Assembly: GCA_016789445.1 (NCBI GenBank)
Contig: JAEUQT010000003.1
Coordinates: forward strand, 146,600-184,177
DNA from: a bacterium
GTDB taxonomy: Bacteria > Patescibacteriota > Minisyncoccia > Phycocordibacterales > UBA2100
Direction: 5' to 3'
DNA length: 37,578 nt
Shown: one piece after another, positions 11,129-23,941 of the stretch
How the letters are laid out: each line of letters begins with the position of its first letter
Position numbering within the stretch: position 1 is the stretch's first letter
Notes under the pieces: model-generated
What the model was told of the DNA's origin: nothing
Databases searched by the model: none
The model's input: only the letters and a program-made list of their open reading frames with translations
Made by a program: the position numbers and the translations under genes

Positions 11129-12508
11129 CTAATGGCCTGCATGTGAGCTTTCTTCAGAACCGTAGCCGCCGCTTGGTGCCTGTACGGATCCGTTACCGGG
11201 AGCGTAGATATCCGGCCGCGGCTCGCCCTCGACCCTGATGATCGCCCAGGCGCCCTTGTTCATGCGCGCGAGCGCGTGATCCACGAGGACGATGTCTCCC
11301 GGCACTTCCGCCGTGAACTCGACGATGGCTGCCCCGCCGGGCAGAACGGCAGTCGTCTGGATGTTCCGATGCGGCTCGGCCCCGATACCGCCTTCTGCGT
11401 AGACCGTGTCCCATATCTCGCCGATGGGATGGAAGGAGGAGATGAGATTCACGCCGCCGTTGCCGACGAAGATGCGGACCTTTTCCCCCGTCTTCACCGT
11501 CATGCGCGGCTCGCCCTCCTTCTCGATACGACCGTTGAAGGTGACGTAATTCGGGATACCGTCGAGGAGCGCGTTGCCGTCGAAGATGGTGAGCCCCTTC
11601 TTGCCGATGGCACCCTTGGTGTACAGCTCGCCCTGCACGATATAGAACTCCTTGTCGACCGGCGGCATCCCCTCGGCAGGCTCGACGAGGATGAGGCCGT
11701 ACTGCCCGTGCGAATTATGCGTGCTCACGTTGGGCGTCGCGCAATGATAGATATAGAGGCCGGGCTGCAGTGCCTTCCACGTGAATACCTTGGTCTCGCC
11801 CGGTTCGACGCGCGAGAGCGTCGCGCCGCCGCCGGGGCCGGTCACCGCATGAAGATCTATGTTGTGGCCGTGCAGGCTCGAGGGATGATTGGTGATGGTC
11901 ATCTCGACGGTATCGCCCTCGCGTACGCGGAGCATCGGCCCCGGCACCTGCTTGTCGAAGGTCCAGTAGTTGAAATAGATGCCGTCCGCGACTTCCGCGA
12001 TCACCTCCTGGGCCGTCAGCGATATCCGCACTGTCTCGCTCCCGGTACGCATGATGGGCGGCGGTACGTCGGTCGGATCGGCACCGATATCTCCCACGTA
12101 TTCGAAATCGCCGAAACCCTTGATGAATACGAGTACGTTCTTGAACGGGAGATCTGGCAGATGGCCGCCCGGATGATAGACGTGCATGAACGCTGGCATC
12201 GCGAAATGCGGCGAGTACGTCTTGTCGGCCCACATATAGAGGAGCCCGCCGGCCACGAACACGCTGAGCGACACCGCCAGGAGCTTCGAATGCATGCGGT
12301 AGACGATGCGGAGCACGAAGAAGGCGAGCGCGGATACCGCGATCGTGATGCCGAGTCCCTGCATCACCGAGTAATGGATGAGCGGATAGAGTGCGAAGAG
12401 GTTGCCGGCGCCGAAGTACATGATCGCGGCTGCAGCGGCAAGGATGAGCGCGAAAATCGCGGCGGCCGCATACGCCCATCCGGCACGCGTTCTTGTACGG
12501 GATGACAT
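11129..12508 (-). CDS. nirK: Membrane-anchored NirK-type copper nitrite reductase with Gln at the type-1 axial position
   Basis: 459 residues. Three membrane segments (about 12-32, 48-70, 76-93) precede a His-containing linker and two cupredoxin domains. By alignment from memory with AniA/NirK, the type-1 ligands are H215, C256 and H264, with Q269 where Met is usual (HGQYG versus xGMYG). Type-2 ligands H220, H255 and H411 are present, as are catalytic D218 (HNIDLH) and H360 (SSFHPIGEIWD). NirK reduces nitrite to NO; the membrane anchor is unusual, since classical NirK is periplasmic or lipid-anchored. The gene follows arsR by 7 nt, so they form an operon. A non-NirK multicopper oxidase is less likely because all type-2 residues are kept. 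Confidence 0.85.
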   Translation of the reverse strand: MSSRTRTRAGWAYAAAAIFALILAAAAAIMYFGAGNLFALYPLIHYSVMQGLGITIAVSALAFFVLRIVYRMHSKLLAVSLSVFVAGGLLYMWADKTYSPHFAMPAFMHVYHPGGHLPDLPFKNVLVFIKGFGDFEYVGDIGADPTDVPPPIMRTGSETVRISLTAQEVIAEVADGIYFNYWTFDKQVPGPMLRVREGDTVEMTITNHPSSLHGHNIDLHAVTGPGGGATLSRVEPGETKVFTWKALQPGLYIYHCATPNVSTHNSHGQYGLILVEPAEGMPPVDKEFYIVQGELYTKGAIGKKGLTIFDGNALLDGIPNYVTFNGRIEKEGEPRMTVKTGEKVRIFVGNGGVNLISSFHPIGEIWDTVYAEGGIGAEPHRNIQTTAVLPGGAAIVEFTAEVPGDIVLVDHALARMNKGAWAIIRVEGEPRPDIYAPGNGSVQAPSGGYGSEESSHAGH

Positions 12509-15396: not shown

Positions 15397-15417
15397 ATAG
15401 ATACTCATCTATATAAT
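15397..15417 (+). promoter_or_regulatory. Operator O3 and TATAAT promoter of the riboswitch operon
   Basis: ATAGATACTCATCTAT (15397-15412), extendable to 7-bp arms, abuts a perfect TATAAT (15412-15417). The expected start site, near 15424, is immediately before helix P1 of the riboswitch. The -35 is poor, as at nrdJ. The palindrome has the same half-sites as O1. Confidence 0.7.
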
Positions 15418-15423
15418 TATCAT

Positions 15424-15530
15424 CCACGACCGCGCGTGGAAGTCGGGTCTGAACCCCGCACTGTGCCGCAACGGTGATGCCGGAGCCTCGCTCCGGACGA
15501 GTCCGGTCTTCGCGCGGTCGTCATTCCCGA
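15424..15530 (+). ncRNA. Cobalamin riboswitch
   Basis: P1 is a perfect 11-bp helix: ACGACCGCGCG (15426-15436) with CGCGCGGTCGT (15511-15521). Between the strands are the conserved parts of the cobalamin riboswitch: GGAAGTCGGGTCTGAACCCC (GGTG-AAATCC-like hairpin), CACTGTGCCGCAACGGTGA (15459-15477, the B12-box core; variants such as CCCGCAACGGTGA are common), a GCCGGAGC/GCTCCGG stem and CGAGTCCGGTCTTC, like the usual GAGTCxGGAxACC end. This class binds AdoCbl or related cobamides and usually turns genes off. A terminator follows at 15560, so control is probably by attenuation. Confidence 0.88.
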
Positions 15531-15537
15531 GCAGGAT

Positions 15538-15583
15538 CCGCGCCTCGCGGCGCCGCACGATCCCCGCTCGGCGGGGATTTTTC
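15538..15583 (+). terminator. Riboswitch expression platform: small hairpin plus intrinsic terminator
   Basis: CCGCG/CGCGG (15538-15542 with 15546-15550) forms a hairpin. ATCCCCGC (15560-15567) pairs with GCGGGGAT (15571-15578), followed by TTTTT. The next gene starts at 15589, only 6 nt after the T-run, with no room for a Shine-Dalgarno after the terminator. The terminator would therefore decide whether the four downstream genes are made. Confidence 0.82.
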
Positions 15584-15588
15584 ATACT

Positions 15589-16488
15589 ATGGAGACCGAA
15601 CGATACCAGGACGAGCAGCTCGAGGCAGAGACGGCGTATCACGAGATCGCCCGTCCGCCCGAGGAATTCCCTGCACCGGAACCCGCGGCGGATGAAGCGC
15701 TGCAGGCCGTCCTCGAGCAGAAAGGCGGCGAGGCGGATGATTGGACGCTCGAGCAGCGGGGCGAGAGCGGCTATCGCTTCGACGGCGAGCATGTCCGCGC
15801 GCCGGACGGCAGCATCTGGGTCAACGAGGATGCGGCGCTTCACCGCGAGATGCTCGCGCAATGGAAAGAAGGCACGAACGCCGTCTTCTTCCTGCCCGAT
15901 TACCGTGAGAAGACGCCCGACGGCGAGACGCTCTACGTGACCCAGCTCATGCTCGGGAAAGACGGCACCGTCTCCTACGAGATCCACAAGCACGAGATCG
16001 CGCATCGCCGCGAAGAAGACGCTTCGCTCCCGGCAGCAGCGAAGCGGGCCGAAGCCCCGTGGGATTTCCACGAAAAGCGCCGCGCCGCGGGATCGGAGAT
16101 GCAGCCTGGGATCGAAATGCCGGATGCCGAAGCGCGCGTTGCCGGAAGCGCTGAAACGATCGCGCACGCGGAGAGCGGCGCGGATGCCTGGCTCATCGAG
16201 CTCCTCAAAGACGACCTCTCCGCCGGACGCGAGACGGCTCCACGCGAATCTTCAGACATCCGACGCGAGACGATGCTCCCCGAGGAGGAGCCGGCCCGCG
16301 AAGCGATGTCCGCATCCCCGCTTCCTGGACCACGTCCTGCGTCCGAAACGCGCGGCACGGTCCCGCCCTTCTTCCCATCTGCAGCATCTGCCGGCAGCGC
16401 GTCGGATCCAGTGCAGCCGCACGCAATAGCGCACGCGCGCCGGAGCCGTGACGGCATCATCATCGAACTCTCCCGCGCACGCGGATGA
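15589..16488 (+). CDS. Unknown acidic protein, first gene of the riboswitch operon
   Basis: 299 residues, start ATG 15589 directly after the terminator. Residues 1-60 are strongly acidic and probably disordered. Residues about 65-145 look folded (ESGYRFDGEHVRAPDGSIWV, TNAVFFLPDYREKTPDGE, LYVTQLMLGKDGTVSYEIHK). The remainder is Ala/Pro/Glu/Ser-rich with a short ordered end (SRDGIIIELSRARG). There is no signal peptide or membrane segment, so it should be cytosolic. I recognise no family. It ends 9 nt before the AAA+ gene, so the two are co-transcribed. An adaptor or substrate-binding subunit for the two ATPases is a guess from position. Confidence 0.75.
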   Translation: METERYQDEQLEAETAYHEIARPPEEFPAPEPAADEALQAVLEQKGGEADDWTLEQRGESGYRFDGEHVRAPDGSIWVNEDAALHREMLAQWKEGTNAVFFLPDYREKTPDGETLYVTQLMLGKDGTVSYEIHKHEIAHRREEDASLPAAAKRAEAPWDFHEKRRAAGSEMQPGIEMPDAEARVAGSAETIAHAESGADAWLIELLKDDLSAGRETAPRESSDIRRETMLPEEEPAREAMSASPLPGPRPASETRGTVPPFFPSAASAGSASDPVQPHAIAHARRSRDGIIIELSRARG

Positions 16489-16497
16489 TTCACTCAT

Positions 16498-18150
16498 ATG
16501 AAGCCGCGCCGCATACCCTACTACGACCTCCGCGCCGAAGCCGCCGGCAAGCTTCCCGCGCTCGTCGGCCGCGAGGCGGAACTGGAGCGCCTCGATCGCA
16601 TGCTGCGCCGGCGCGTGAATGCGAACGTCTGCCTCGTGGGACCATCCGGCGTCGGCAAGACGGCGCTCGCGTACGGCTGGATACAGCGCCTCCTGCGCAA
16701 CCGGCATCAGCCGCCGGTCATCGCCCAGCTCGATGCGGCGCACCTCGCGGAACTCGATGACCCGGCCGCCGAAGCATGGTACGCCGGCGCGCTGCGCAGC
16801 TTGCCCGCCGGCGTCTTCTTCGTCGACGACTTCGGGCGCGCCATCCGTCAGGATGCGGCGCTCGTCCCGCGCGCCTACCGGCTCTACCGCCACCTGCTTG
16901 CGCGCCGGGACGCGCATCTCATCCTCGCGCTCGAGCCGCATCAGCATGCGTGGCTCGAGCGCGAATGCCCCGCGTTCGCGCGGGAATTCGACGCCATCGC
17001 GCTCGAAGAACAGCCGGATGCCGAGTGCCGGCGGGTGCTCTCCCGCAAGCTGCGGCGGCTCGGGACACAGCCGATCATCGTGCCCGATGACATGATCGCG
17101 GAGGCCGTCGCGCTCGCGCGGCGGCACCCGACGCTCGGCGCGTTGCCGCGCAGCGCGATATCCCTCCTCGATGAGGGCATCGCCCTCGCCGCGGCATCGG
17201 GCGCGAAAGTGCTCGGCACGGACGCGCTCGGTCGCGCCATCGAAGCGAAGACGGGCGTCCCTCGGGCGTCGCTTTCCGCCGGCGGCCTGCGCGATGCGCT
17301 CGACATCGAGAAACAGCTGAACGCCCGCATCACCGACCAGCCCGGCGCAACCGCTCGCATCGCTGGAGCGCTGCAGCGGATGAAGCTCGGCCTGCACGAT
17401 CCGCAGCGCCCCGCTTCCTTCCTCCTTCTCGGGCCGTCAGGCGTCGGCAAGACGGAGACGGCGAAAGCGGTCGCGGCGCTCATGTTCGGCGGCGCGAAGA
17501 GCTTCGCGCGTTTCGACATGTCGGAATTCCAACAGGAACATACCGTCCAGCGGCTTATCGGCGCGCCGCCGGGATATCTCGGCCACGAGGAAGGCGGCGC
17601 GCTCACCAACGCCCTGCGCCGCGAGCCGCACTCGCTCGTCCTCCTCGACGAGATCGAGAAGGCGCATCCGAAGGTCTTCGACATCTTCCTGCAGCTCCTC
17701 GATGACGGGCGACTGACCTCGGGCCGCGGCGAGACGGTGAACGCTGCGGACGCCATCATCATGGCTACCTCGAACGCGGCGGCGCCCGAGATACTGGCAG
17801 CGCACGCGCGGGGGACGGATACCGACGATCCGGCGTTCGTGCGCGATACGGTGCTGCCGGTCCTCGCGCGGACGTTCCGGCTCGAATTCCTGAACCGCTT
17901 CGATGCCATCATCGTCTTCAAACCGCTCGCTGCGCCTGCGCTGCTGCGCATCGCGCGCCTCGAGATCCGCAAGCTCGAACAGCGCTTCGCCGCGCACCGC
18001 GTGCGCTTCGATATCGAGACGGAGACGCTGATGGACCGCATCAATGACCTTGCCGACCCGCGCTTCGGCGCACGCCCCGTGAAGCGCTTCGTCGAGGAGA
18101 CGTGCGAAACCCTCCTCACGCAAGCGCTGCTCGCCGATACTCGCGTATGA
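16498..18150 (+). CDS. Clp-like double AAA+ ATPase, compact
   Basis: 550 residues. The first AAA+ module (about 20-250) has LVGREAELERLD, Walker A GPSGVGKTA and a Walker B-like FFVDDFG with Asp in place of the usual Glu, suggesting weak or no hydrolysis. The second (about 270-550) is close to ClpB/ClpC D2: GPSGVGKTETAKAVA, FDMSEFQQEHTVQRLIGAPP, pore loop GYLGHEEGG, LVLLDEIEKAHPKVFDIFLQ, LTSGRGETVNAADAII, Arg finger FLNRFDAI and sensor-2 DPRFGARPVKRF. It lacks the Clp N-domain and ClpB middle domain, so it is short for the family. No ClpP gene or obvious IGF loop is seen. It probably threads or remodels a protein partner. The stop overlaps the next start (ATGA). Confidence 0.85.
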   Translation: MKPRRIPYYDLRAEAAGKLPALVGREAELERLDRMLRRRVNANVCLVGPSGVGKTALAYGWIQRLLRNRHQPPVIAQLDAAHLAELDDPAAEAWYAGALRSLPAGVFFVDDFGRAIRQDAALVPRAYRLYRHLLARRDAHLILALEPHQHAWLERECPAFAREFDAIALEEQPDAECRRVLSRKLRRLGTQPIIVPDDMIAEAVALARRHPTLGALPRSAISLLDEGIALAAASGAKVLGTDALGRAIEAKTGVPRASLSAGGLRDALDIEKQLNARITDQPGATARIAGALQRMKLGLHDPQRPASFLLLGPSGVGKTETAKAVAALMFGGAKSFARFDMSEFQQEHTVQRLIGAPPGYLGHEEGGALTNALRREPHSLVLLDEIEKAHPKVFDIFLQLLDDGRLTSGRGETVNAADAIIMATSNAAAPEILAAHARGTDTDDPAFVRDTVLPVLARTFRLEFLNRFDAIIVFKPLAAPALLRIARLEIRKLEQRFAAHRVRFDIETETLMDRINDLADPRFGARPVKRFVEETCETLLTQALLADTRV

Positions 18151-18371
18151 ACGCCTCCCTGCGACATGAAGCTGCCGCGGAACTCTACCGGGAGCGCACG
18201 GCGCTGCTGCGATCCATCGAGAGGGATATCCCCGCAGCGCTCGCGGATCTCATCCGCGTGAAGCTCGAATACGAGCGCGATTATCTCTCCGCCGCAGCCA
18301 TGCCCCGCGAAGCGCCGCCTGCGCCCGATCCGGCGTACTTCGAGCTGCTGCCCCTTGATATGGTCCTATGA
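18147..18371 (+). CDS. 74-residue helical protein between the two ATPases
   Basis: Starts at ATG 18147, overlapping the previous stop as ATGA, and ends at 18371, overlapping the next start the same way. The N-terminal half is a long amphipathic, charged helix (HEAAAELYRERTALLRSIER, DIPAALADLIRVKLEYERDY). The end is a Pro-rich tail, PPAPDPAYFELLPLDMVL. Coupling on both sides implies stoichiometric production with the ATPases. No family recognised; a small bridging or regulatory subunit is plausible. Confidence 0.75.
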   Translation: MNASLRHEAAAELYRERTALLRSIERDIPAALADLIRVKLEYERDYLSAAAMPREAPPAPDPAYFELLPLDMVL

Positions 18372-19645
18372 ACCGCGTCACCATCGGCATCAACGAATTC
18401 CGCGGGAAGCGCTCCCCGATCACGCTCGCCGCGCCGGACCGCCTGCGCCACCTGTACCTCCTCGGCAAGACCGGCGTCGGCAAATCGAGCGTCTTCCAGG
18501 ATCTCTGCCTGCAGGATATCCGCAACGGCGAAGGCGTCTGCTTCATGGATCCGCACGGCGATTCCGTCGAGTGGCTGCTCGCGCGCATACCGCGGGAGCG
18601 GCTCAAGGACGTCGTACTCTTCGACCCGGGAGATGCGCTGCACCCCTTCGGGCTCAATCTCCTCGAAGCGGGCGACGACGCCGAGAAGGGCTTCCTCGCG
18701 AGCGAATGCATCCGCATCTTCTACAAGCTCTTCGATCCGCAGCGCTCCGGCATCATCGGCCCGCAGTTCGAGCACTGGCTCCGCAACGCGGCGCTCACCG
18801 TCATGGCGGGCCCCGGCGGGAGCCTGCTGGATATCCCGCGCCTTTTCATAGATCCCGGCTTCGAGCGGGAGCGTCGGCGCTTCCTCACGGATGCGACGGT
18901 CATCGATTTCTGGGCGAAGCAGATGGCGCACACTTCCTCCTTCCACAAGAGCGAGATGCTCAATTACTTCCTCTCCAAATTCGGCCCCTTCCTGAGCGAC
19001 CCGCTCATGCGCACCATCATGGGGCAGCGCGTGAACAGCTTCCGCTTCGCGGACCTGATAGACAACCGCAGCATCTTCCTCGCCAACCTCTCCAAGGGCC
19101 GCATCGGCGAGACGAACGCGCACCTGCTCGGCCTCATCCTCCTCGCCCGGCTCCAATCCGCGGTATTCGCGCGCGCCGGGCGCAGCGCGGACGTCCGCAC
19201 GCCCTACTATCTCTACGTGGACGAGTTCCAGAACTTCGCGACCGATACTTTCGAGAGCCTGCTCAGCGAATCCCGCAAGTACGGGCTCGGCATCCATCTC
19301 GCGCACCAGTACCTCGCCCAGCTCACCGACGGCATCCGCGAGGCGGTCTTCGGCAACGTCGGGACGCAGCTCGCGTTCGAAGTGAGCGCGGAGGACGCGA
19401 AGGTCATCGCGCCGGGATTCGCGCCGGTCACCGAGAGCGATCTCACGAACCTTCCGCGATACCATTTCTATATCAGGCTCATGATCGAGGGGAAGACGAG
19501 CCAGGCGTTCTCCGGCATCACGCTCCCGCCGGAGCCTGCGCCGCCGGGCGTCGGGATGCGGGAGAAAGCCGTCGCGCTCAGCCGCCTCGCGCACGGCTGG
19601 CCGCTCCCGTTCGTCGAAGCCACGCTGCAGCAGGAACGCGGCTGA
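18368..19645 (+). CDS. VirD4/TraG/HerA-like ATPase (type IV coupling protein family), soluble
   Basis: 425 residues. Walker A is LGKTGVGKSS (about 33-42), followed by GEGVCFMDPHGDSVEWLLAR. Walker B is YYLYVDEFQNF (about 279-289). Then come SRKYGLGIHLAHQYLAQL and FGNVGTQLAFEVSAEDAKVI, the run typical of TraG/TraD/VirD4 and HerA-type DNA-pumping ATPases. Classical coupling proteins carry N-terminal membrane helices; none are present, so membrane attachment would need a partner. Usual CPR neighbours (VirB4, PrgI-like) are absent here. Last gene of the B12-riboswitch operon; it ends 8 nt before the converging lectin-like gene. Confidence 0.85.
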   Translation: MNRVTIGINEFRGKRSPITLAAPDRLRHLYLLGKTGVGKSSVFQDLCLQDIRNGEGVCFMDPHGDSVEWLLARIPRERLKDVVLFDPGDALHPFGLNLLEAGDDAEKGFLASECIRIFYKLFDPQRSGIIGPQFEHWLRNAALTVMAGPGGSLLDIPRLFIDPGFERERRRFLTDATVIDFWAKQMAHTSSFHKSEMLNYFLSKFGPFLSDPLMRTIMGQRVNSFRFADLIDNRSIFLANLSKGRIGETNAHLLGLILLARLQSAVFARAGRSADVRTPYYLYVDEFQNFATDTFESLLSESRKYGLGIHLAHQYLAQLTDGIREAVFGNVGTQLAFEVSAEDAKVIAPGFAPVTESDLTNLPRYHFYIRLMIEGKTSQAFSGITLPPEPAPPGVGMREKAVALSRLAHGWPLPFVEATLQQERG

Positions 19646-19652
19646 TGCCGCT

Positions 19653-22082
19653 TCACTCGCCCCCCATCAGCTGATGCACCTTCTTGATAGAATACGTCGC
19701 GAAGAATCCAGTGCCTTTCGTCGCATTGATCGGGGCAAGGACCTCGCTCGCGTATTTCTCTTGGAACTTCACGACCGCATCGAACGTACGCTGTGCGAAA
19801 AGATTGGTCTCCGCGCCGGGCGCGCCCGCACCACTCTCCCCCAATTTGAAGCCGAGGCAGTTCATCAGCTGCTGAAGCGCACGCACATCCTCACCTGTCA
19901 TGCCCTTCTTCAGGGAGCGTGTGAACGTGTACTTCGGGCAGGTGCCGGAAGTTACCGCAGCAGCGGCAGCAGTCTGCGTCGAAGCGAACGCCTGTGGATA
20001 CTGACGCACCAACTCATCCGCGAGCGCAAGATTGCCGGATGCGCGCAGGTTCGCCACACGGCCTTGTATCGTGGTACCGCCACCGCCGCCCGACGAGATC
20101 GCGCTACCGAAAAGCCCGAAGATCGAGAACGACGGGGTCGTACACGAGATCGTGTTGGCACCCGTATCTACGGTGCAGGCGTTGAGCTGCGCCCACGAAC
20201 CGTTCGTATAGTGGTAGAGCCTGAGCGTCGATTCATCCAAGCCGCTGATTTCGCTGTCGGTGTACTGGTACTCGATGGTCACTTCCGCGTCGAAGGAATC
20301 GAATTCGGTCGTGCCGTTGACGATCGCCTTCACATCGAAGACAGTCGCGCCCACTTCCGTCGGCTTGGCCGTCGGTCGGCCGAGTGTCGCCAGCACATCA
20401 TCACTCGGTATCGCCTTCACTTGGATGACGAACGAAGAAGTCGTCGCGTTATTGGGCACGCTTACCGAGAATGTCTTACCGCCATCCTCCACGCTCGTCT
20501 CGCCGCCGCTAGAGGTCATCGCCGTCGAGGTCGCCGCTGTAGGCTCGATATCGGCGGTACAACCCGACGTCGTAAAGGTAGCGTCTGATGATGTCGCGCT
20601 ATTGAGAGCCGCATCGCGCGAGACGGCGGCATAGTGATACGTGGTGCAGCTCAGGAGCGGAGCGAGTCCGAGATAGTGGGAAGTCACGCGCGATGACGTA
20701 TCCCTCTCCGGCGTCGTCGAGCTATAGCTTGACGTGAGGCCGAACACGACCTTGCTCGATGCGGATTCATTGCTTGTCCACGCGACGCCTGCTGTCGTGC
20801 TCGCGGTCGATGATGCAGTTATGGAAGAAAGAGAAGGAGCGGTCGAGTCCCCCGTCGTGAACGCCCAGACGGTATCCGATGAGATACCGCTGAAGTAGTT
20901 ATTCGAAGCGTCCTTGAACGCGGTACTCGGGATGATCACATAGTACGCGGTGCTGTCGTCGAACGTTATGCTCGGATTGATCGTGATGCTGGTCGAGCCG
21001 CCGCCGGTCACTTGCCCGCTTCCCACCGCGATGCTCTCTACCGTCGAATCATCGGAATCCTTCTTGATGAGGATATTCCCCGTATCGGCGGTCACGGTCT
21101 TGCTGAACGTGATGACGAGGTTCGCGGTCGAGCTTACATTGGTCGCGTTATTCAACGGTGAGAGCGCGGTGAGTGCCGGAACGTCGGCCGTCACGATTGA
21201 AGAGGTCGCCGCGACGACTTGAGGCAGATTGCCGTCGGTCCCATACTCGACGATGTACCCCTGCGATGTCGAACACGGATAGTCGTTCCAGTTCCCGCTC
21301 CCGCCACCGAACATGTAGCCGCAGTCTTCACCGCCGCTTTCATCACCGGTCGCATCATCCCCGTTGTAATCATTCGGTTCACCGCCCGCCCAGCCGGCGA
21401 ACCAGCCCGTCTGCGTCGTCCCTCCTCCACCGTCCGATTCCTGGAAGAACCATGAACCTGCTTCGGGACCGGTCTCCCATACCCACCGCTTCTCCTGAGT
21501 CCAATCACGCGCACCGAGCCAGCCGTCACCGGTGGTGCGTGGTGCGACGAATGCGTTCTCGCTGGTGGTCGACATGGTGGCGAGATAGCCAGGTACGCCG
21601 TCTATCGAAGCTGCTTCTGCGGCAGCTTTCGCTTCGGCCCATGTCCGGCTCGTGCTCACGTATTCATACATGTGACCATTCCCCGACCAATACACCTGAT
21701 TGGCATTCACTAATGAGACTTCAAGCGTATCGGAGCCGGTAGAGCTACGGGTATATTTGAGCGTCGAGAGCGCGGTATTGAGATTCGCGACGGTACCGCT
21801 CAGGTTCACCGTCGCACTGCCGCTTCCGGAAATAGTAACGCCCGTCGTCGCCGAAACGGTGAGTGTTCCGCTGGTGACGCGGAGCTTCACGGGAGTCGTC
21901 GACGCGGCATTACCGGTTATCTGGAAGCCGGGGATGGACGTCGCGACATTCGGCGTCGTTGTCGCATTACTACCAGCAACGACGGCGAGCGCATGCGCGT
22001 ACGAAAAGCTGCCGAAGGCCGCAAGAATCGCAACAAAGACCGGCAGTGCATGCAGGGCAGCGAGTCCGCGTACGGATTTCAT
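19653..22082 (-). CDS. Secreted C-type lectin/Ig-like protein with peptidoglycan-binding domain
   Basis: 809 residues from ATG 22082, with a TATACT box (22090-22095) 7 nt upstream; ATG 22103 is an alternative with a GAGG. A signal peptide (GLAALHALPVFVAILAAFG, then AHA) comes first, followed by a beta-rich region with a VNLSGTVANLNTAL motif. A C-type lectin-like domain follows (RTWAEAKAAAEA, GYLATM, GGEPNDYNGD, GNWNDYPC, GYIVEYG). Next are a Big_5/SbsA-type Ig domain, an Fn3-like domain, a further beta domain, a Gly linker and a C-terminal PG_binding_1-like domain (LKKGMTGEDVRALQQLMNCL, FDAVVKFQEKYASEVL). The EPN and WND motifs are those of sugar-binding lectins. It is likely anchored to the wall and exposed for cell attachment. 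Confidence 0.85.
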   Translation of the reverse strand: MKSVRGLAALHALPVFVAILAAFGSFSYAHALAVVAGSNATTTPNVATSIPGFQITGNAASTTPVKLRVTSGTLTVSATTGVTISGSGSATVNLSGTVANLNTALSTLKYTRSSTGSDTLEVSLVNANQVYWSGNGHMYEYVSTSRTWAEAKAAAEAASIDGVPGYLATMSTTSENAFVAPRTTGDGWLGARDWTQEKRWVWETGPEAGSWFFQESDGGGGTTQTGWFAGWAGGEPNDYNGDDATGDESGGEDCGYMFGGGSGNWNDYPCSTSQGYIVEYGTDGNLPQVVAATSSIVTADVPALTALSPLNNATNVSSTANLVITFSKTVTADTGNILIKKDSDDSTVESIAVGSGQVTGGGSTSITINPSITFDDSTAYYVIIPSTAFKDASNNYFSGISSDTVWAFTTGDSTAPSLSSITASSTASTTAGVAWTSNESASSKVVFGLTSSYSSTTPERDTSSRVTSHYLGLAPLLSCTTYHYAAVSRDAALNSATSSDATFTTSGCTADIEPTAATSTAMTSSGGETSVEDGGKTFSVSVPNNATTSSFVIQVKAIPSDDVLATLGRPTAKPTEVGATVFDVKAIVNGTTEFDSFDAEVTIEYQYTDSEISGLDESTLRLYHYTNGSWAQLNACTVDTGANTISCTTPSFSIFGLFGSAISSGGGGGTTIQGRVANLRASGNLALADELVRQYPQAFASTQTAAAAAVTSGTCPKYTFTRSLKKGMTGEDVRALQQLMNCLGFKLGESGAGAPGAETNLFAQRTFDAVVKFQEKYASEVLAPINATKGTGFFATYSIKKVHQLMGGE

Positions 22083-22210
22083 GCGCCCAAGTATAACATG
22101 CATGAATACCTCACGAGCATGTCGGTTACGCAACGACGAGCAGTCGTTATTCCCGCGACTCGCCCTATAAAGGTGTACGGTATCGCCGACGCGCGATACT
22201 ATGGTAGCGA

Positions 22211-23941
22211 ATGAAAGCCCCTCGAATACACCGCGGCATTCTCCTTGCATGTCTCTTCTCCTCGCTGCTCGCGACACAGCCCGCACATGCGGCTTCTATT
22301 ACGTGGTCTGCGCAAACCGCGGCAGAAAATAATTCATGGCAGTCCGTCGTATACGGCGAAGGCATCTTCGTTGCGGTCTCCTCCAATGGCACCAATCGGG
22401 TTATGACATCTCCTGATGGCATTACGTGGACCGCTCGATCGGCCCCAGTCGGTACTACCGACAGCACGTGGAAATCAGTTACGTACGGCAACGGCACGTT
22501 CGTGGCGGTGGCCAATGTCGGCACCACCAAGGTGATGACCTCCCCCGACGGCGAAACGTGGACGGCCCAGACGCCGGCCGAAGATAACTCATGGGAATCC
22601 GTTACCTTCGGCAACGGCACGTTTGTCGCCGTTGCCGATACCGGCACGAACAGAGCCATGTCCTCGACCGACGGAGTGACGTGGACACCGCACTCGGTAA
22701 GCGCCACGACATGGAAAGCAGTCACGTACGGCAACGGCACGTTCGTGGCGGTCAATGATCGTGATAGCGCGATGACTTCCGCCGACGGTGCCACGTGGAA
22801 TCTGCACACGATGGACGGCAATTTCGCGTGGAGGAGTCTCGCGTACGGCAATGGAGTATTCGTGGCCGTAGCGGGGAATATGGCCATCGACACCTCTCCC
22901 AATGGCTCCTCATGGACGAGCAGATCATTCCCCAGCGGGTTTAGCGCGGGACTGAGTTCGGTTGCGTACGGAGGCGATACGTTTGTTGCGGTTCCCTCCA
23001 ATACCGTAGGCAAGGTGATTGTCTCCTCCGACGGAATCACGTGGAGCATACAGGATGCGGTCTCGGGCAGCGGGTGGTCAGGCATTACGTATGGGAACAA
23101 CAGGTTCGTTGCGGTTGGTGGCAGTACGGCACGAGTCATCACCGGCGCGACAGCCCCTACGGTTACGACGCAAGCAGCCTCTTCAGTATCGACCACGAGC
23201 GGTACCGGCAACGGCACGATCACCTCGGAAGGCACCGCGAGCAGTACCGCACGCGGTTTCGTCTACGGAGCGAGCGCTTCGTACGGGGCGACGACCACGG
23301 AATCCGGCACATTCGGCGCCGGTGCGTTCACCGCATCCATCACCGGCCTTACCTGCGGCACGACGTATCACTATGCGGCCTATGCAACGAACACGTTTGG
23401 CACCGGATATGCGTCGGACACGACGTTCACGACGAGCCAGTGCCCCGCGGAAGACGAGGAAGATTCCGAATCCGACTCCCCGCGATCATCAATAAGCGGC
23501 GGCGGCACGTCCGTCATGGATCGTGTGAAGAATCTCCTCGCATCCGGCAATACCGCCTTCGCGCAGCAATTGATGCGCGAGTATCCGCAGGCATTCTCGT
23601 CGGCGCAGACGGCCGCAGCGGCTTCCGCCGCAGTCACACCAGCGACTGGCCCCTGCCCGTCATACCGCTTCACTCGCTCACTGCGGCAGGGCATGACGGG
23701 CGACGATGTACGCGAGCTGCAGAAATTCCTCAACTGCCAGGGCTTCGCGGTCAGTGCGGCGGGCGCAGGATCTCGCGGAAACGAGTCGAACGTCTTCGCG
23801 GCACGTACCCACGAGGCCGTCGTCGCATTCCAGCAACACTACGCCGCCGAGATACTCGCGCCTGCGGGAGTATCGGGCGCCACCGGCGTCTTCGGCGAGT
23901 TCTCGAGGATCAAAGCGCACACGCTGCTGGGAGTCGAATAA
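22211..23941 (+). CDS. Secreted beta-propeller protein with Fn3-like and peptidoglycan-binding domains
   Basis: 576 residues. Signal peptide ILLACLFSSLLATQPAHA. Seven repeats (about 30-315) share the pattern W.SV.YGNG.FVAV......M.SPDG.TW; seven copies suggest a seven-bladed propeller. Codon-level similarity between blades (e.g. TACGGCAACGGCACGTTCGT) suggests recent duplication. An Fn3-like domain (about 318-410), an acidic linker (EDEEDSESDS), a Gly hinge and the end domain (VMDRVKNLLASGNTAFAQQL, LRQGMTGDDVRELQKFLNC, HEAVVAFQQHYAAEIL) follow. The end domain is homologous to that of the divergent neighbour at 19653-22082. Probably wall-anchored and surface-exposed; ligand unknown. Confidence 0.85.
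   Translation: MKAPRIHRGILLACLFSSLLATQPAHAASITWSAQTAAENNSWQSVVYGEGIFVAVSSNGTNRVMTSPDGITWTARSAPVGTTDSTWKSVTYGNGTFVAVANVGTTKVMTSPDGETWTAQTPAEDNSWESVTFGNGTFVAVADTGTNRAMSSTDGVTWTPHSVSATTWKAVTYGNGTFVAVNDRDSAMTSADGATWNLHTMDGNFAWRSLAYGNGVFVAVAGNMAIDTSPNGSSWTSRSFPSGFSAGLSSVAYGGDTFVAVPSNTVGKVIVSSDGITWSIQDAVSGSGWSGITYGNNRFVAVGGSTARVITGATAPTVTTQAASSVSTTSGTGNGTITSEGTASSTARGFVYGASASYGATTTESGTFGAGAFTASITGLTCGTTYHYAAYATNTFGTGYASDTTFTTSQCPAEDEEDSESDSPRSSISGGGTSVMDRVKNLLASGNTAFAQQLMREYPQAFSSAQTAAAASAAVTPATGPCPSYRFTRSLRQGMTGDDVRELQKFLNCQGFAVSAAGAGSRGNESNVFAARTHEAVVAFQQHYAAEILAPAGVSGATGVFGEFSRIKAHTLLGVE

Follow-up and report, generated by a model that had tools for sequence, protein, structure and literature searches.

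The usual regulons of cobalamin riboswitches comprise genes for B12 uptake, metE and class I ribonucleotide reductase, and we know of no operon of AAA+ and VirD4-type ATPases among their targets; no cobalamin-riboswitch operon of this kind was found for Patescibacteria in the open-access literature. Coupling ATPases of the TrwB/VirD4 type carry a cytosolic ATPase fold with Walker motifs and a TraG-D_C region, together with an N-terminal membrane domain. In the type IV coupling complex of Legionella (DotL-DotM-DotN-IcmSW), a VirD4-class ATPase and small partners take protein cargo (PMC7280309). DotL is membrane-embedded, and this system has no Hsp100 partner and no known riboswitch. In Patescibacteria, 5,713 VirD4 homologues have been described in 2,918 genomes, 148 near virB4, with the suggestion that exaptation may have given the VirD4-type proteins of this phylum other roles (PMC12102498).

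Here we examined a 37,578-nucleotide stretch of DNA (the window) from a genome of 850 kb that is 99% complete, with Kaiserbacteria and further Patescibacteria as its named relatives. The window contains an operon that encodes a protein designated P0, an Hsp100-like ATPase, a small protein and a VirD4/TrwB-type ATPase, with a cobalamin riboswitch in its leader, all on the forward strand. The initial annotation had described a unit formed by the last three genes. The trio was present as stated, and its genes were joined by the reported ATGA overlaps (positions 18147-18150 between the Hsp100-like ATPase and the small protein, and 18368-18371 between the small protein and the coupling ATPase). However, the unit was incomplete; two upstream elements that had been overlooked, the gene for P0 and a B12 riboswitch, also belong to it and change the likely meaning of the operon. 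Gene starts were taken from a simple codon-usage caller. The double ATGA overlap was particular to the window genome; junctions at other loci varied, with slight overlaps at one extreme and about 125 nt at the other. No TM segment was found in the four operon proteins, none of which reached the threshold for TM-like hydropathy. Stated most cautiously, the unit is a conserved operon of four genes whose expression is predicted under B12 scarcity.

The Hsp100-like ATPase (550 aa, positions 16498-18150) contains two AAA+ modules, D1 and D2, and a ClpB-type D2-small domain, a combination that places it in the Hsp100 (ClpB/ClpC) class; it matched AAA_2 (E = 4e-54), ClpB_D2-small and a ClpB profile. 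The tandem D1-D2 arrangement and an intact D2 with a pore tyrosine are shared with ClpB, ClpC and ClpA. Unlike these proteins, the operon AAA+ protein lacks the N-domain, the M-domain, the ClpP loop, the catalytic glutamate of D1 and the YRG pore loop. Absence of the N-domain and M-domain had been claimed previously and was supported by PDB profile matches, which covered ClpB residues 165-402 and then 528-835; both domains are present in the window genome's own ClpC. The deviating Walker B motif of D1, also noticed earlier, reads VDD instead of DE, and the catalytic glutamate was replaced by D, N or S in 19/19 copies. Across these copies D1 retained its P-loop and had no YRG pore loop, and D2 retained Walker A and B, the pore tyrosine, sensor 1, the arginine finger and sensor 2. 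An IGF/LGF-type ClpP-binding loop was not found at the expected position in D2 of this AAA+ family; the ClpC of the window genome carries LGF at this site, and ClpP is also encoded in that genome. Analysis of the neighbourhoods of the loci revealed no protease gene recurring beside the AAA+ gene. A role as a ClpP partner was rejected because both the ClpP loop and a protease neighbour are missing. Full-length fused AAA+ proteins with 35-37% identity (loci L111, L116 and L117) were also rejected as relatives of the module; these were ClpA/C-like and had no partners. At one of these loci (L116:7990-17205), a ClpA-like AAA+ gene shares its gene run with an M23 peptidase and a number of T4SS pilins, and thus represents another Hsp100 linked to a T4SS-like cluster.

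The coupling ATPase (425 aa, positions 18368-19645) scored above the cut-offs for TraG-D_C and TrwB_AAD_bind and has intact Walker A and B motifs. Its predicted structure (pLDDT 89.6) gave TrwB-deltaN70 (1e9s, E = 2e-12) as the best PDB match, with further fold matches to HerA, DndH and DotL (6sz9). It shares the cytosolic ATPase fold, Walker motifs and TraG-D_C region with TrwB/VirD4; unlike them, it is without the N-terminal membrane domain and has an Hsp100-like AAA+ protein and P0 as neighbours. The absence of membrane helices, as first proposed, was evident from a maximum hydropathy of 1.44, with no TM segment identified. In contrast to the Dot complex, the proteins of the module contain no TM segments and are not encoded next to a channel cluster. 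The coupling ATPases of the module formed their own clade (support 0.999), in which the window protein occupied a long branch, apart from two core VirD4-like paralogues encoded by the window genome. The core paralogues comprise 924 aa (secY-map region) and 589 aa (after murC/rsmI); at least one was present in 56/58 family genomes, and both in most. They belong to the same soluble ATPase family as the operon ATPase (39-42% identity), fall in a separate clade, and no AAA+ partner or riboswitch was seen with them. These nearly universal soluble VirD4-like ATPases lie at L071:7552-10326 and L072:7637-9406, one of them close to secY with map and ndk as its flanking genes and the other after murC and rsmI.

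The small protein (74 aa, positions 18147-18371) was defined by its own HMM and alignment, and this HMM detected it at all loci, with E-values of 2e-4 to 2e-23. Family searches with this protein matched no known family. Outside the window its length was mostly about 80-106 aa, and the window copy is shortened. A C-terminal motif of the YF-x-x-K type was conserved, with YFELLPLD as the window version. Comparison of close relatives indicated purifying selection on the small protein (dN/dS 0.15-0.22, with several dS values saturated).

P0 (299 aa, positions 15589-16488) is an acidic protein encoded by the first gene of the operon, which immediately precedes the AAA+ gene at all loci. It consists of a folded N-domain of about 105 residues (approximately residues 30-135; positions 15676-15993) followed by a low-complexity tail whose length varies widely. 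P0 ranged from 237 to 905 aa among the loci. Iterated profile searches detected N-domain homology in 14 copies. The N-domain of the window protein was modelled with a pLDDT of 87.5 and gave no significant fold match in comparisons with PDB and viral structures. Domain searches found no DNA-binding domain in P0, and no secretion signal was recognizable. The tails contain few aromatic residues and were mostly classed as disordered in a charge-hydropathy plot, a crude measure that also scored most P0 N-domains as disordered and is thus weak evidence for tail disorder. P0 ended in AA in 13/19 copies and in A in 17/19 copies, compared with 0/226 and 9/226 neighbouring genes, respectively (Fisher p about 1e-17, with relatedness ignored and the copies not independent). 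The window P0 is exceptional and ends in SRARG instead of AA. Mimicry of ssrA by the P0 tails was rejected, with the final alanine alone common to the tails and the ssrA tags of the genomes. P0 also contained more GI-x-[LIVM] motif repeats than expected (39 observed versus 6.4 ± 2.4 in shuffles).

Co-conservation of the three genes, on which the initial proposal depended, was confirmed across Patescibacteria, where the AAA+ protein, the linker (the small protein) and the coupling ATPase occurred together and in the same order in 22/22 loci (19 plus three more). The rule holds for the short-form AAA+ protein without the D1 catalytic glutamate, after which the linker and coupling ATPase follow in order. 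Hosts of the trio included Kaiserbacteria, Paceibacterota, Nomurabacteria, Magasanikbacteria, Doudnabacteria and others. The 550-residue AAA+ protein was identified in 6/58 family genomes, 5/297 genomes of the order sample, 1/384 of the class sample and about 11/380 of the phylum sample; P0 (by its N-domain), the AAA+ protein and the coupling ATPase were found in exactly the same 6/58 family genomes. Pairwise distances of the AAA+ protein correlated with those of the coupling ATPase (r = 0.91) and the linker (0.79), a relationship that shared phylogeny alone could give. Both motors were under strong selection in close relatives (dN/dS 0.02-0.04). Selection on P0 was weaker (dN/dS about 0.15-0.22, from an uncertain alignment with several dS values saturated). 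P0 and the linker change much more rapidly than the two motors, as expected for a cargo and its adaptor. The module copy of the window (positions 15589-19645) is an outlier of the clade, with its shortened linker, the loss of the Ala-Ala tail and a coupling ATPase on a long branch.

Several genes in the surroundings were also recorded. Very large genes divergent from P0, with an HTH_17-like domain at the start, were present at L104:5779-9825, L107:6125-11692, L109:1-4491 and L118:12994-16500. A gene for a PaaX-like regulator lies upstream of P0 in L104, L108 and L109, with a similar gene by sequence in L118. In the window, a copper nitrite reductase (positions 11129-12508; TIGR02376 above cut-off) is adjoined by an ArsR-type regulator, and positions 19653-23941 encode two proteins of surface type that carry peptidoglycan-binding domains at their C-termini; one of the two proteins also has C-type lectin and Ig-like domains.

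The operon leader contains an AdoCbl riboswitch aptamer (RF01482, positions 15411-15574) that scored 57.3 bits against an Rfam gathering threshold of 50 (E = 4e-8). The aptamer ends 14 nt before P0, and a gene for an NrdJ-type adenosylcobalamin-dependent reductase lies on its 5' side, directly upstream of the operon (TIGR02505, 329.7 bits, just missing the cut-off of 340). Folding of the leader predicted an expression platform with alternative terminator and antiterminator (positions 15527-15582), as in the terminator-type cobalamin riboswitches whose aptamer clan it shares. The terminator hairpin (atccccgc-tcg-gcggggat-tttt, 15560-15582) lies just before the P0 start, and the antiterminator is formed by pairing of ccgagc (15527-15532) with gctcgg (15566-15571); the minimum free energy structure was the terminator and the centroid the antiterminator. 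A simple terminator scan of the window leader called no terminator, and the fold energy was ordinary compared with shuffled sequences (z = -1.1), so that the case for the riboswitch rests on Rfam score, position and conservation. A cobalamin-clan match or a B12 box preceded P0 in 20/20 loci with upstream sequence: 12 reached the Rfam gathering threshold (the window and 11 further loci), five scored below it, and three had a B12 box only. In these three loci the B12 box and a terminator were visible in the sequence, and a hairpin with a T-run also precedes P0 in the other loci, giving 20/20 loci with both a cobalamin element and a terminator. The B12 box had at most one mismatch in 19/20 loci; the box of L068 was degenerate. 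In about 813 kb of the 850-kb window genome the only B12 box was the operon's own. Control loci (499 kb) contained one, in L112 before a related AAA+ pair, where a cobalamin riboswitch (31.9 bits) is followed by an 800-aa protein and a 547-aa Hsp100 that lacks N- and M-domains and whose D1 has DE in Walker B (L112:8073-12251). This pair has neither linker nor coupling ATPase and is possibly a simpler relative of the module. Together, these sequence features strongly support predicted control of the operon by B12. Terminator-type cobalamin riboswitches that were functional in reporters were repressing (PMC9600662), and the cobalamin-bound riboswitch should likewise end transcription, such that the operon would be made at B12 scarcity.

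The operon had also been proposed to be a stand-alone machine and not a type IV secretion remnant. The second part of this proposal held. The suggested search for VirB4 elsewhere in the genome identified an apparently intact cluster at C1:290-302 kb, with VirB4 (NF045971 above cut-off), PrgI and membrane proteins; with this cluster in place and the module forming a separate conserved unit, a T4SS remnant was rejected. In line with this, the majority of patescibacterial VirD4 homologues are encoded away from virB4 (PMC12102498). For the stand-alone part, the evidence was neutral. VirB4 was found in 17/19 genomes with the module, leaving two module-bearing genomes without a match, and in 18/19 genomes without the module. 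As these frequencies are about equal, the presence of VirB4 is uninformative on the module and speaks neither for nor against a link to the T4SS. In the stretches covered, virB4 never adjoined a copy of the module.

We tentatively favour a mechanism, judged somewhat short of probable, in which a machine made at B12 scarcity unfolds P0 and passes it on to the coupling ATPase. This preference is based on the parts of the operon, the P0 tail and the rate at which P0 changes; what the sequence itself demonstrates is the operon, its co-conservation, where the riboswitch lies and which motifs were lost or kept. Termination by the cobalamin-bound riboswitch would be relieved when B12 is scarce. P0 would be the most likely cargo; the D2 ring of the AAA+ protein would grip it, probably at its C-terminal tail, and unfold it, with D1 mainly binding ATP and holding the ring together. 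The small protein may link the AAA+ ring to the VirD4-type ring by direct contacts, and the VirD4-type hexamer may take the threaded chain onward, perhaps to a T4SS-like channel encoded elsewhere. The window copy may work differently, given its SRARG tail, shortened linker and long-branch coupling ATPase. B12 control of a translocation module, for which this mechanism offers no explanation, counts against it, as do the lack of a recognizable secretion signal in P0, the separation of the module from virB4, the two module-bearing genomes without a VirB4 match and the limited likeness of the tails to ssrA tags.

A cytosolic system that remodels complexes when B12 is short is a possible though somewhat unlikely alternative, in which P0 is a partner-recruiting scaffold, the AAA+ protein dismantles or resets complexes such as B12-dependent ribonucleotide reductase or DNA-bound assemblies, and the VirD4-type ATPase is a HerA-like DNA pump and not an exporter. 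The B12 control, the NrdJ-type gene directly upstream, the fold matches to HerA and DndH, the absence of membrane segments from all parts and the excess of GI-x-[LIVM] repeats in P0 are consistent with this. However, the window genome is the only one in which the reductase gene was observed next to the module, the closest fold is TrwB and not HerA, and no nuclease or DNA-binding partner recurred in the operon.

The alanine tails also allow P0 to be read as a short-lived regulator, with the C-terminal Ala-Ala acting as a degron for ordinary Clp proteases and the operon AAA+ and VirD4-type proteins protecting or sequestering it. Most P0 copies end in AA or A, and the window genome encodes ClpP and a full ClpC, but the window P0 has no degron-like tail and no DNA-binding domain was found in P0; we consider this reading quite improbable. 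Anti-phage defence by a HerA-like ATPase and an AAA+ protein appears very unlikely. The distribution is patchy, and PADLOC gave weak matches to mad8 and candidate AAA+ proteins that were generic ATPase matches only; however, P0 and the linker were unmatched in PADLOC, the operon contains no nuclease or other effector, its neighbours are housekeeping-like with no defence-island context, and a B12 riboswitch would be an unexpected control for defence. Least probable of all is that the operon is a component or relic of a conjugative or mobile element. The VirD4-type ATPase would fit this reading, but it is already mostly refuted, since operon and riboswitch are conserved, with no relaxase noted in a non-systematic look through the listed neighbouring genes, no trio in viral contigs, only distant ATPases among phage and plasmid matches, and purifying selection and conserved gene order.

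Each part of the operon belongs to a known superfamily, and the whole unit matches no described system found in the open-access literature. The unit is kept across several classes of a phylum with mostly unknown biology, and its riboswitch offers a testable trigger, B12 shortage, in ultra-small organisms thought to be host-dependent. It also bears on the question of exaptation (PMC12102498), as one VirD4-type subfamily has fixed partners and its own control. In its furthest-reaching form, the favoured unfolding mechanism would mean that Patescibacteria own a two-motor export machine, composed of an Hsp100 unfoldase and a soluble VirD4-type ATPase, that B12 starvation switches on and that directs a rapidly changing, disordered protein towards the host cell. 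We regard this as unlikely; if true, two-motor export would tie epibiotic attack or feeding to cofactor hunger.
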